A DNA stretch of 64,000 bases from positions 62,001 to 126,000 of the forward strand of contig JAJRZA010000045.1 of NCBI GenBank assembly GCA_024275485.1, read 5' to 3'. Each line of letters starts with the position of its first letter. Within the stretch, counting starts at the first letter, position 1. Positions 15,898 through 20,680 of the stretch are shown one piece after another. Made by a program: the position numbers and the translations under genes. The notes below the pieces were generated by a model. The model saw only the letters and a program-made list of their open reading frames with translations. It did not search any database and was not told the origin of the DNA. The DNA comes from Candidatus Krumholzibacteriota bacterium. Lineage in GTDB: Bacteria; Krumholzibacteriota; Krumholzibacteriia; LZORAL124-64-63.

Positions 15898-17547
15898 TTG
15901 TCGAAGCTTAGCCGACTCAAACAAGATGCCTATCAGGCGGGTAAAAATCGTGACTGGGACCAGGCTGTGGCTATTTACGAGCAGATTCTGGAACTGGACA
16001 AAAGCAACCCGACCCTGATCAATGAACTTGGTGATCTTTGCCTGAAGGCCGGGCAAACAGCAAGTGGCGTGAAGCACTTTCTCAGTGCTGCGTCCAAGTA
16101 CCGTCATACGGGATTGCTGAACAACGCGGTAGCCATCTACAAAAAGATTCTTCGCTACGATGCGGACAACATGAATGCCCACTGGTATCTGGCGGAGAGC
16201 CGTGCCAATCAGGGCCTGCTCATGGATGGCGCCCAGCATGCCTTGGTTTTTCTGGGAAACCAGGAAAACCTCACCGGCGACATCAAAGAAATTTTTCTCA
16301 AGCGTTGCACACATCTCTTTGAGCTTTATCCTGAAAATCCAGAAATACTTGAAAGCCTGCTGCAAGTGTTCCGCATGTGGAACCTGGCGCAGGAGTCAGG
16401 ACGAACGCAAATCCAGCTGGCCTGTTTGAAGTGGGATGCCGGCGAAGAAGAAACAGCCCAGCGCATGGTCGAGGAGACTTTGGCCCAAACTCCGGAATTG
16501 GCCAACTATCCTGAGCATTCCCGTTGGATGGAAAAACAGAATCCTGGGGCCCAGCCTGGCAGCGCCGGAGGGTTCGACAACGTCAGCTTTGATGAATCCA
16601 CACCTGCGGAGGCACCGGCTAAACCTGAGATTCCCGATACTGGATCGGTGAGTCAGGTCCACGATACAATAGCCTCTGAGGGTCCTTCAACCCCAGTTCC
16701 TCCTGCAGGGCCTGTCGCACCTGCAGAGCCTGTCGTATCTGCAGAGCCGGTATCACCTGCAGGGCCGGTCGCTCCTGCAAAACCGGTCGCACCATACGGA
16801 CCGGATCCAGCCGTCTGCGAATCGGTTTCAGTGGCGAAGGGGAAAGCAGAACCCACCAAGGAAGAACCTGATGAAGGCGGATGTTTCAATCTGGACATGG
16901 GCGAAGGTTGCAGCTTTGATGATCTGATAGCCCAGGCAACCGCCGGAGTCCCCGACGTCACCAGTGAAGTGGAGGAATTTCCAGGGACCGGGAAGGACTC
17001 CGACGATGAGAAGGTATTACCGGAGGGCACTGATGTGCCTGTTCCGGAACCCAGCACGGTGAACCTGCTTGATGAACTCCTGGCTGAAGACTCAGATTCC
17101 GACATTCAAGAGTCAGTGCGTGAAGAAGAAACCATCAGCGAAGAAATCGGTTCCCAGTTGGGTGGTGCAAATTCCAGTGACGATCCGTCCAGTCTCTATG
17201 AAATGGGCATGGTCTACCTTGAAATGGGTATGCACGACAAGGCCTGCACAAGTTTTCAAAAGGCGTCCTGCCATGCTGAATTCGCCATCAGGGCCCTCGA
17301 AATGTGGGGAATCACCCTTCTGCGTGGGGGCAAGGTCGAAGATGCCATCGCTGTTCTGACCGAGGGGCTGGATATTCCCGAAGAGGGCAGCCATGAGTAC
17401 TTGGGCCTACTTTATCATATTGCGCGTGCCCACGAACAAGGCAACAACACCGATGAAGCCTTGAGGCTATTTGAGATGATCCACGATCAGGATCCAGTGT
17501 TCCTGGATGTTGGAAGAAGGGTTGCCAAGCTGGCTTCCTTGACTTGA
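15898..17547 (+). CDS. Tetratricopeptide-repeat protein with Pro/Ala repeat linker
   Basis: The start TTG 15898 has GGGG at 15886-15889 at good spacing, and no ATG or GTG in frame gives the same N-terminus. Residues 1-180 are TPR units (RDWDQAVAIYEQILELDK, then TGLLNNAVAIYKKIL). Residues 215-440 are an acidic, disordered linker that includes five six-residue repeats (PAGPVA-like, residues 269-298). Residues 440-549 are TPR units again (MGMVYLEMGMHDKACTSFQKA). There is no signal peptide, so it is probably cytoplasmic. Such proteins are scaffolds; nothing identifies the partner. The gene stands alone between hut genes and the transporter fusion. TTG start and function are inferences. Confidence 0.8.
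   Translation: MSKLSRLKQDAYQAGKNRDWDQAVAIYEQILELDKSNPTLINELGDLCLKAGQTASGVKHFLSAASKYRHTGLLNNAVAIYKKILRYDADNMNAHWYLAESRANQGLLMDGAQHALVFLGNQENLTGDIKEIFLKRCTHLFELYPENPEILESLLQVFRMWNLAQESGRTQIQLACLKWDAGEEETAQRMVEETLAQTPELANYPEHSRWMEKQNPGAQPGSAGGFDNVSFDESTPAEAPAKPEIPDTGSVSQVHDTIASEGPSTPVPPAGPVAPAEPVVSAEPVSPAGPVAPAKPVAPYGPDPAVCESVSVAKGKAEPTKEEPDEGGCFNLDMGEGCSFDDLIAQATAGVPDVTSEVEEFPGTGKDSDDEKVLPEGTDVPVPEPSTVNLLDELLAEDSDSDIQESVREEETISEEIGSQLGGANSSDDPSSLYEMGMVYLEMGMHDKACTSFQKASCHAEFAIRALEMWGITLLRGGKVEDAIAVLTEGLDIPEEGSHEYLGLLYHIARAHEQGNNTDEALRLFEMIHDQDPVFLDVGRRVAKLASLT
16702..16791 (+). repeat. Five 18-bp tandem repeats inside the TPR gene
   Basis: Five consecutive 18-bp units start at 16702, 16720, 16738, 16756 and 16774, each of the form CCTGCAGGGCCTGTCGCA with a few substitutions. 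They encode PAGPVA, PAEPVV, SAEPVS, PAGPVA and PAKPVA in frame. Because the unit length is a multiple of three, copy-number change would lengthen or shorten the linker without breaking the frame. Confidence 0.85.
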
Positions 17548-17633
17548 TTTCGATAAAATCCCCAAAAATTTTCATAATTTTTTCACCCAAGCGAAACCTT
17601 GCTCTGGTTGTGGTGTTCCCTTAAAATACGGGT

Positions 17634-20225
17634 ATGAAAAAACCGGGAAAGCTTGGAACAAAACACTCCCCGGTCCGGCAACCCGTGTTGTTGGGCCTTT
17701 TTGCTGGCACCGCCGTGGGTGCCGGGTACCTTCTCGCAGGTATTCCCAATGTGGAGTTGATGTCCCTGGTCATCGCTCTTTCGGGTGCGGTGCTTGGCCC
17801 GGTGGCCGGGCCACTTTGTGGGGTGTTGTCCGGGACAATTTATTCTCTTGGGAATCCCTATGGTCCACCGCCACCAGTTTTACTGGCGGCCCAGATGCTG
17901 GGGCACGGTCTGACGGGATTTTTGGGTTGGTTTTTTGGCAGACAAATTCTGCAAGCCGGGAAGAAAGCTGGATTTATCAGGATTTCACTGCTGGCGGCCA
18001 CCTCAGGTTTCGCGGGAACATTTTTCTACCAGGTCTTCACCAATCTGGCAATTGTCCTGATGGCCCCGGACGCGGATCCCAGGATAATCCTGGCAGGCAT
18101 GATCTACTTTGCCCTTGTTCACATTGGAGTCAATACGATCCTTTTCTTTCTCTTTTTCCCACATCTGGTGCGTCGGTTGGCGCAGGCGGGACAGTCGCCT
18201 CTGGTGGGGCGAAGCATCGGTGTTCTTTTTTTTGGTCTGTTGGTTTCCGGAATATTTACCTTTGACGAGGCTCGGGCCCAACAAGCCTTGCCTGACTCCA
18301 TGGTGATGGCTCCAGGTGATACACTTTCCCATGCGGAGGTCGATTCCCTCACTTTGCCCGACGCTGTTTCCCTCCCCGTACCTGGTCCCCATGGCTGGAA
18401 ACGTCCTCTCTGGAATCCTTTTTCCGCAACCACCATTCAATGGCTGAACAACCGAACCAACTGGGTGCCGGTGACCGACGGAGGTCTCGGCGGGATGACA
18501 GTGATTTTGGGAGAGGCCAATACCTCGGTCTCACCTATGTTCTTGAGGGACGGAATCCCCCAAGGAACAGGTCACCGCCTGGCCGATGATCCCTGGCTGG
18601 TCTCCAATCAGGCCGTGGTGCTCGTTCAGCAAAAAACTGGACGGGACTGGTCTGGTGGAACCGACGGCGTTGTGAATATGGCCACCGATGAAAAGGACCT
18701 TGCCAAGGCTGTTTCCTTCTATCGTGGAATCAAGGGGCCCCACGAAACCTACATGCGCGGCATCAGCCTGATGACCCCGAAAACCGCCTGGCGATTGGGT
18801 TTTGAATTCGATGAAAACATTGATCGCGACGGCTACAATTATTCGGACCAACCTGATGAGGACTTTAATCTCAACAATGAATTCCGCGGCCACTCCAGCA
18901 TTCGCCGCAGCCGGACCCGGCTGATCCGCCACCTGGATGATGACAACAGTTTGACTCTGGAGTACTCCACCGCACGCAAAACCAAGGATGATTTGCCGAC
19001 CATCGGAGCCGAACACCAGGAGATCTGGTCCGATGGCGCTTCAGCCACCGTACGCAGCCGCACGGGCGACTGGGCTCTCCGTACGGCAATATTCTGGAAC
19101 AGCCGCACTGTGGAGTGGGGGGATCGACCTGTCGGGACGGTGCCTGGGATCAACCTGCGTAAACTTGAAGCCGGTCGGGAAGGGGTGGTGCTGGATCTTA
19201 TTCATTCGCCCAGGGATACCAGTGATCTGATCTCCCCGTTCCAACCCGATGCCGGCCTGCGACAAGAAAGTCTGAATGGTCCCGCAAGCGGATTGCGACT
19301 CATGGTGAACCATTGGGACATTCACGATGATGGTGTTGATTGGGACCTTTTGCCAGCATCGGCCAGCAGTGCAGATGGAACTGAAGCACGGTTGGCGGCC
19401 CGCACCGGCCTGGCCCTTGGATCATCCCGACTGAATTTTGGTCTCTTTGGCGACTATCAGGATTATGCAGGCTTGTGGCCCGGTGGATTTGTCGCCTTTC
19501 AGCAGGCCCAAATCAATCCCTGGTGGAAAATGGTGGTTGAAGCCGGGGGACGTGCCCCGCGCAGTGACGAATTGTTGACACCTTTGCTGCATGTTGTCGA
19601 CACCCAGGAACTTTATCTGCTGCCCAATGTCGACCTGACCCACGAGAAAACCTTGCGCGCCAACCTCTTGTTCAATACTAGTGTCTTGGGCTTCGATCTT
19701 GCCCTGGATTTGAGCGCCCGGCAACTGCGCGATGGCATCACCTGGATAGCCGACCCAGCTGAAGCCTTCGTCGGCCACTGGCGCAACCAATTGGATATGG
19801 ACAGCCAGCGCCTGACAGCCTCCATCGCCCGACAGGGGCGGTTTCTCGGCTGGGGCCGAGCCAGGGTGGAGGGAACATGGCAGGAATTCGACGAAAAAAC
19901 AGCCAAGGCAGCCTTTCTGCCGCCCAACCAATATCTTCGCATGGAACTAATGTGGGAACTGCATCTGTTCAAGGAAGACGGGATCCTTCAGGCGGCCCTT
20001 CTGAGCACATACCGGGGCCCCATGGGCGATCCGTGGGATGTGACCAGGACGGTCACGCTGCCATCGGCGACCACCCACGACCTGTTGGTTGGGTTCCGGC
20101 TGGTGGGGACCCACCTCTCCCTGAATTTCCGCAATGTGACGGATCAGCGGATTCGCCTGAGCTCGGCCACGTTGAGTCCGGGTCGCGAAATCGATCTGCG
20201 GCTGAATTGGGTCTTTCTCTACTGA
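17634..20225 (+). CDS. Fusion: ECF-S-like membrane domain + TonB-receptor-like beta-barrel
   Basis: A single uninterrupted 863-codon frame. Residues 15-180 hold about five very hydrophobic helices with Gly-rich wording (IALSGAVLGPVAGPLCG, then YSLGNPYGPPPP and MLGHGLTGFLGW) like substrate-binding S components of ECF vitamin transporters. Residues 191-215 then look like a fresh signal peptide (RSIGVLFFGLLVSGIF ending in ARA before Gln). The remaining 648 residues resemble a TonB-dependent receptor: a short plug-like part (MFLRDGIP, then SGGTDGVVNMAT), long amphipathic strands, and a last segment FRNVTDQRIR ending in WVFLY. An inner-membrane and an outer-membrane protein in one chain would need cleavage at 215, or a second start (GTG 18204 sits exactly there, with weak GCGGG upstream). 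Vitamin uptake is the inferred role; the substrate is unknown. No EcfA or EcfT gene is in the window. Confidence 0.72.
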   Translation: MKKPGKLGTKHSPVRQPVLLGLFAGTAVGAGYLLAGIPNVELMSLVIALSGAVLGPVAGPLCGVLSGTIYSLGNPYGPPPPVLLAAQMLGHGLTGFLGWFFGRQILQAGKKAGFIRISLLAATSGFAGTFFYQVFTNLAIVLMAPDADPRIILAGMIYFALVHIGVNTILFFLFFPHLVRRLAQAGQSPLVGRSIGVLFFGLLVSGIFTFDEARAQQALPDSMVMAPGDTLSHAEVDSLTLPDAVSLPVPGPHGWKRPLWNPFSATTIQWLNNRTNWVPVTDGGLGGMTVILGEANTSVSPMFLRDGIPQGTGHRLADDPWLVSNQAVVLVQQKTGRDWSGGTDGVVNMATDEKDLAKAVSFYRGIKGPHETYMRGISLMTPKTAWRLGFEFDENIDRDGYNYSDQPDEDFNLNNEFRGHSSIRRSRTRLIRHLDDDNSLTLEYSTARKTKDDLPTIGAEHQEIWSDGASATVRSRTGDWALRTAIFWNSRTVEWGDRPVGTVPGINLRKLEAGREGVVLDLIHSPRDTSDLISPFQPDAGLRQESLNGPASGLRLMVNHWDIHDDGVDWDLLPASASSADGTEARLAARTGLALGSSRLNFGLFGDYQDYAGLWPGGFVAFQQAQINPWWKMVVEAGGRAPRSDELLTPLLHVVDTQELYLLPNVDLTHEKTLRANLLFNTSVLGFDLALDLSARQLRDGITWIADPAEAFVGHWRNQLDMDSQRLTASIARQGRFLGWGRARVEGTWQEFDEKTAKAAFLPPNQYLRMELMWELHLFKEDGILQAALLSTYRGPMGDPWDVTRTVTLPSATTHDLLVGFRLVGTHLSLNFRNVTDQRIRLSSATLSPGREIDLRLNWVFLY

Positions 20226-20680
20226 TTCTCCCCAGACGCCAGGGCCTGGGATTGGTGCTGGCTGTGGCCCTGCTTGTGGCAGGTCGGCAGGTGCGCACGC
20301 ACATGCTCCTGGATGATCAGGGATTGTGGCGGGATCACATGTGGCTTGACGAATTGGTGCTGCCCGATGGCGCCCTGGCCGGACAGGATGCCGGCAAACC
20401 AGTCAAAATTGTGCTGACGACCCCCTTGCCCATCAACACTTGCAGCCAAGACAGCCTGCGGCTGCTGCCCGGGGTGGGAAAGGTGATGGCTCAACGCATA
20501 GCGGATGCCCGCCTGAATGGATTCGTTTTTCGCTCTGCCGAAGACCTACGAACCATAAAAGGCATCGGGAAAAAGCTCTCTGCCAGGCTCGATTCCCTTG
20601 TTCTTTACCTGCCAACTGCTGCAATGACCCCTGAACTACCCGATTCAAGTCTTTTTGGAATTTTACGATCTTCACCCTGA
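20207..20680 (+). CDS. Helix-hairpin-helix protein (ComEA-like)
   Basis: The frame is open far upstream inside the preceding gene, so the start is uncertain. TTG 20207 (overlap of 19 bp) or TTG 20252 would place a single hydrophobic segment (LGLVLAVALLVAG) at the N-terminus. The C-terminal part has two helix-hairpin-helix motifs, LLPGVGKVMAQRIADAR and IKGIGKKLSARL, as in ComEA-type DNA-binding proteins. With one membrane anchor and a DNA-binding tail this looks like a periplasm-facing DNA receptor, possibly working with the type IV pilus encoded just downstream in DNA uptake. dprA at 40429 would fit the same process. That link is inference. Confidence 0.65.
   Translation: MGLSLLILPRRQGLGLVLAVALLVAGRQVRTHMLLDDQGLWRDHMWLDELVLPDGALAGQDAGKPVKIVLTTPLPINTCSQDSLRLLPGVGKVMAQRIADARLNGFVFRSAEDLRTIKGIGKKLSARLDSLVLYLPTAAMTPELPDSSLFGILRSSP

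Follow-up and report, generated by a model that had tools for sequence, protein, structure and literature searches.

A conserved fusion of an ECF S-component-like domain to a TonB-dependent receptor-like barrel in Krumholzibacteriia, with a proposed role in cobalamin uptake

A single reading frame within the window (the whole stretch of 64,000 nucleotides analysed here) joins a domain predicted to adopt the fold of an ECF S-component to a domain predicted to form the plug and barrel of a TonB-dependent outer membrane receptor. Specifically, the frame at 17634-20225 on the plus strand runs without interruption for 863 codons, from an ATG at 17634 to a stop codon at 20223-20225, and encodes a protein of 863 amino acids; it lies on contig C28 of a genome of 3.98 Mb whose relatives are mostly named as Candidatus Krumholzibacteriia / Krumholzibacteriota. 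The conserved polyprotein architecture is real, and comparison among genomes supports well, without showing, that the protein is cleaved and that it transports cobalamin. That a single precursor serves both membrane steps of cobalamin uptake after being cut by signal peptidase is the account considered probable here, and it draws on the observed fusion, two predicted folds, a conserved cleavage pattern, a two-gene version in sister families and patterns of gene co-occurrence. An initial annotation of this DNA had proposed a polyprotein serving vitamin uptake across both membranes, a reading that stands with the cleavage itself remaining inferred.

The first part of the protein, residues 1-190 (17634-18203, plus strand), is a predicted ECF S-component domain whose C-terminus is predicted to be cytoplasmic. 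Its match to the Pfam family ECF_trnsprt (PF12822) is weak (E 1.2e-5, 25.9 bits) and does not reach the cut-off of 30.7; a standalone S relative in locus L032 clears it with 32.2 bits. Residues 1-215 were also modelled with AlphaFold2 (mean pLDDT 88); the best 20 fold matches of this model in the PDB are all S-components, namely RibU, FolT, PanT, ThiT and BioY, and at the level of the predicted model the S-component fold of the N-terminal domain is confirmed. When an S profile was compared with PDB sequences, the top match was ECF-CbrT (6FNP, chain 6fnp_A) at E 1.5e-4, followed among named S-components by RibU at E 0.19, while the fold search with the S-domain model did not single out CbrT among the S-components. 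Alignment of 28 S domains revealed no cysteine in any invariant or near-invariant column.

Beyond a putative internal signal peptide, discussed below, the chain continues with a linker predicted to be disordered and periplasmic (residues 216-254, 18279-18395, plus strand; pLDDT below 50 for 188-256). This linker is rich in Ala, Pro, Asp and Ser and measures 17-68 residues in relatives; the aligned fusions share a common AP[AG]D[ST] stretch within it, and no canonical TonB box was recognised in the linker at the predicted mature N-terminus. A WxRPLWxPF motif, in which W255, R257, W260, P262 and F263 are invariant in the alignment of fusions, then opens a modelled plug-like domain (residues 255-359, 18396-18710, plus strand), which is followed by a predicted outer membrane barrel of some 22 strands, the count being approximate (residues 360-863, 18711-20222, plus strand). 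The assignment of these two domains does not come from Pfam, in which residues 216-863 match no family, nor from direct sequence searches of the PDB, which returned nothing useful whether they started from the complete protein or from the profile of the barrel. Rather, a full-length model built from a 22-sequence alignment (mean pLDDT 78) displays the helical domain, a short helix at 195-206, disorder to residue 256, the plug-like part and the strands of the barrel, and Foldseek places this model among TonB-dependent receptors in the PDB at E values down to 2.3e-22, with BtuB (target TM 0.76) and PfeA among the matches. Similarly, profile comparison links the barrel to the adjacent-gene receptors of sister families with 93% probability (E 2.6e-7), and several of those receptors pass Pfam Plug (E 7e-16 to 2e-11). 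A separate sequence match lies in a record named Sideroxyarcus sp. MAG, a betaproteobacterium (L112:86-1858), which is 29% identical to receptor residues 230-861 and is possibly a misbinned contig.

The three-part anatomy described in the initial annotation, comprising a multi-helix S-component-like membrane domain, a signal peptide at residues 191-215 and a TonB-receptor-like plug and barrel at residues 216-863, is upheld by the fold models, the profiles and the pattern at the junction. Structure prediction yielded both an S-component fold for the N-terminal half and a barrel for the C-terminal half; absence of the latter, as the annotation had recognised, would have refuted the proposal.

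The substrate is probably cobalamin, an inference made without binding data. CobS is missing from all 58 relatives' genomes, and the source genome encodes the B12 enzymes MetH and Mcm (methylmalonyl-CoA mutase) as well as an IcmF-like protein. Furthermore, the S domain and strong FecCD (BtuC-type) permeases tend to exclude one another: S alone is found in 36 genomes, FecCD alone in 16, both in three and neither in three (Fisher p 9e-9; p 3e-5 at genus level). Absence of BtuCDF formed part of the argument by which CbrT and BtuM were assigned (PMC5997447; PMC6072759). The FecCD operons examined in genomes lacking S mostly encode a BtuF-like binding protein, a BtuD-like ATPase and BtuC, and in three S-less genomes of family f5 the gene for the adenosyltransferase PduO adjoins the FecCD operon. 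Of the three genomes possessing both systems, two (G026, locus L129, and G044, locus L126) have an iron-type binding protein in the operon, and the third (G037) combines a divergent S gene with a BtuF-type operon. Control by a cobalamin riboswitch was considered and dropped, as neither the window nor any of 12 BtuCDF/FecCD loci yielded an Rfam match. A polyprotein of the kind described could nevertheless carry some other vitamin, the precursor of one, or a metal complex: S-components of many substrates share one fold, the fold search does not prefer any of them, and the riboswitch is lacking. This possibility is judged doubtful, though not negligible, in light of the mutual exclusion with BtuCDF, the lack of CobS in the presence of B12 enzymes, and the standing of CbrT as the top sequence match.

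Candidate partners for cobalamin uptake were also identified. An orphan EcfT-like membrane protein is encoded between asd and truA (C19 114678-115451; L078:6679-7452), and its match to PF02361, at 22.7 bits, falls below the cut-off. Within the fusion family this gene is present in 23 of 25 genomes with S and in none of 10 without it (p 4e-7; 0.003 at genus level); it adjoins truA in several other families too. Both this comparison and that with FecCD treat related genomes as independent, and the p values are optimistic to that extent. No dedicated EcfA ATPase was identified, there being no TIGR04520 match above cut-off and none beside the EcfT-like gene. CbiQ matches in some relatives (L169 and L170), located in what seem to be loci for nickel/cobalt import, were discounted. 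TonB was found in all 32 genomes searched.

How one frame might yield two proteins is a question on which the junction itself is informative. Residues 191-215 (18204-18278, plus strand) form a predicted internal Sec signal peptide ending in ARA, with cleavage predicted after A215; a mostly positively charged region here precedes a short hydrophobic stretch, which is followed by ARA|QQ. While the surrounding stretch between S domain and receptor has diverged strongly, A215 is near-invariant, and all 23 of the 23 fusions have the pattern [AVSGP]-x-A|[QED] behind the hydrophobic core, as compared to a mean of 10.7 and a maximum of 20 when these residues were shuffled 20,000 times. Since the individual sites were set by eye with Ala at -1, the independent evidence consists of the shuffle test and the conservation of the column. 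Judged from the aligned sequences, the cleavage pattern is the sole conserved feature of the junction, and the signal peptide with an ARA site that was initially annotated there stands. Gln occupies +1 at 18 of the 23 fusion junctions. Products of signal peptidase I in Bacteroidetes typically begin with such a Gln, which is not general in related phyla, the rule reportedly not holding across the FCB group (PMC5837995). As in the Bacteroidetes rule, Gln also follows some N-terminal signal peptides of the source genome, and a census of +1 residues at such peptides gave too few and too noisy cases for a test of the rule here.

Two routes to a separate receptor were originally envisaged, namely cleavage within the chain and an internal start at GTG 18204, a codon that corresponds to residue 191 and was verified to be in frame. 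With regard to the start of the whole frame, a conserved sigma70-like promoter (17599-17627, plus strand) consisting of -35 TTGCTC (17599-17604), a 17-base spacer and -10 TAAAAT (17622-17627) ends 6 bases upstream of ATG 17634, which has no Shine-Dalgarno sequence. This distance is kept in nearly all of 20 fusion genomes whose upstream regions were aligned, and a scan of the window found only two such promoter matches before frames of at least 90 codons, the other being located inside another gene. Conservation of a promoter 6 nt from the ATG suggests that the mRNA for the whole frame may be leaderless.

A receptor made separately from GTG 18204 or a nearby codon, with the full-length chain minor or absent, would agree with the finding that the receptors of sister families start at the corresponding place and that a GTG or TTG is present in this region of many fusions. 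However, GTG 18204 is missing from relative G002, which is 84% identical, and as an unconserved codon it was rejected as the internal start. Nor is any other start-codon position conserved; an ATG occurs in the stretch in only nine of 23 fusions, and pairing of the candidates with the anti-Shine-Dalgarno sequence is no better than that of start-like codons elsewhere in the frame. Moreover, all of the genomes keep the frame open across the junction, something that separate translation would not call for. Internal initiation is consequently considered unlikely. Because the junction conserves a cleavage pattern, GTG 18204 is not conserved and a leaderless message is suggested, cleavage of one precursor by signal peptidase is inferred to be the best model, though it has not been shown biochemically; of the two routes first envisaged, the former is thus favoured and the latter loses its proposed start codon.

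It might be argued instead that the chain is never cut, such that the seventh hydrophobic segment remains anchored in the membrane and either holds the barrel at the inner membrane or bridges the envelope together with it. In favour of this, the segment has sufficient hydrophobicity for a membrane helix, and a physical link would allow substrate to be handed over directly. Such an arrangement is nonetheless very unlikely, since the linker of relative G005 consists of only 17 residues and would reach about 6 nm when fully stretched, less than the width of the usual periplasm. In addition, the feature conserved at the junction is a signal peptidase I pattern, and the receptors of relatives carry ordinary N-terminal signal peptides. 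Slimmer still is the chance that slow or incomplete cleavage leaves receptor and S-component transiently as one trans-envelope chain that hands cobalamin between the membranes.

Under the preferred model of precursor cleavage, translation of a probably leaderless mRNA would start at ATG 17634, and the S-component domain would insert into the inner membrane, its C-terminus facing the cytoplasm. Next, the seventh hydrophobic segment would serve as an internal Sec signal peptide behind which signal peptidase I cuts after A215, freeing a receptor of 648 residues to proceed to the outer membrane while the S-component stays in the inner membrane. The receptor, together with TonB, would import cobalamin into the periplasm, where the S-component would bind it and move it inward, probably with the EcfT-like protein encoded between asd and truA. 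Insertion, cleavage, energy source and substrate are each inferred, in the absence of proteomic or biochemical evidence.

A search of related genomes, as had been recommended at the outset, found the fusion, its junction free of stop codons, in about 29 of 38 genomes belonging to one Krumholzibacteriia family, spanning nine genera and 33-84% identity; the figure is a count from tables, and some genomes are split over contigs (the assembly of one fusion-bearing relative, G017, consists of four). Among 80 genomes of the class, the fusion was seen in this family alone. Other families (f2, f3, f4, f6 and f7) possess a standalone S gene and, immediately downstream, a receptor gene that encodes a signal peptide of its own, and where the surroundings were read this pair mostly lies between hutI/TPR and pilB, the place occupied by the fusion. 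The stop and start codons of the two genes overlap as ATGA in L032, and ATGA or overlapping junctions are found in other families as well. The initial annotation had noted that two separate genes in relatives would point to an assembly error; such genes do exist in the other families, but most of the fusion's own family is fused, and the fusion is therefore real. An assembly or frame error joining two genes, for which only the two-gene state of other families speaks, is effectively refuted by these relatives, the open junction recurring in independently assembled genomes of nine genera.

All fused receptors form one group in the barrel tree (support 63/99), and a single fusion event is thus likely, though not proven. 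Three genera of the fusion family (g3, g6 and g12) have a receptor with its own N-terminal signal peptide and lack S, and the tree does not decide between loss of their S domain and divergence ahead of the fusion event. As regards neighbouring genes, a TPR protein (window 15898-17547) is found upstream of the S gene or fusion in many of the genomes read, including those in which S and receptor genes are separate. On the other side, a small helix-hairpin-helix protein with an N-terminal hydrophobic segment, ComEA-like by appearance (window 20252-20680), sits between the fusion and the pilB/pilT/pilC genes.

Comparison with known transporters highlights both similarities and differences. ECF-CbrT of Lactobacillus delbrueckii (PMC5997447; PDB 6FNP) shares the S-component fold, is the top sequence-profile match (E 1.5e-4), and likewise occurs in users of B12 that lack BtuCDF (PMC5997447). 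In contrast to the Krumholzibacteriia S domain, which is fused to an outer membrane receptor, has an orphaned EcfT-like partner and lacks an identified ATPase, CbrT is a Gram-positive protein encoded by a separate S gene and served by a shared ECF module. BtuM, a solitary S-fold B12 transporter, resembles the present system in replacing BtuCDF in Gram-negative bacteria and in its linkage to btuB, but employs Cys80 to ligate cobalt (PMC6072759). Because the Krumholzibacteriia S family has no conserved cysteine, its S domain is, as far as can be told from the alignment, not BtuM; an EcfT-like protein moreover co-occurs with it, and no fusion has been described for BtuM. BtuB-type receptors share the plug and the barrel of about 22 strands, whereas the receptor of the fusion is divergent, without a Pfam match or recognised TonB box, and is proposed to derive from an inner membrane precursor. 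By analogy, the fusion may work like a pair formed by BtuB and either CbrT or BtuM.

Precedent for one bacterial chain in which an internal signal peptide joins a polytopic membrane protein to another protein is provided by the cytochrome b/c1 precursor encoded by Bradyrhizobium fbcH, in which signal peptidase cuts at the internal signal. Both products of fbcH remain in one inner membrane complex, whereas the second product of the fusion is proposed to go to the outer membrane. Similarly, an engineered signal peptidase I site placed after an internal helix of a polytopic Rieske protein releases AmiA (PMC5449189), a construct that, unlike the natural fusion, is artificial and delivers a single reporter. 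A literature search for an ECF S-component/TonB-receptor fusion or a comparable bacterial polyprotein found none, with subscription papers mostly outside its reach, and the routing of the two products of one chain to separate membranes appears to be new.

If the proposed account is true, Krumholzibacteriia would possess a natural bacterial polyprotein that supplies two membranes with each translation event, signal peptidase cutting the chain in its middle. Such a protein would offer a testable system in which to see how Sec, signal peptidase and outer membrane assembly handle a receptor synthesised behind inner membrane helices, and the close tracking of S by the orphan EcfT-like gene makes the putative partner directly testable as well.
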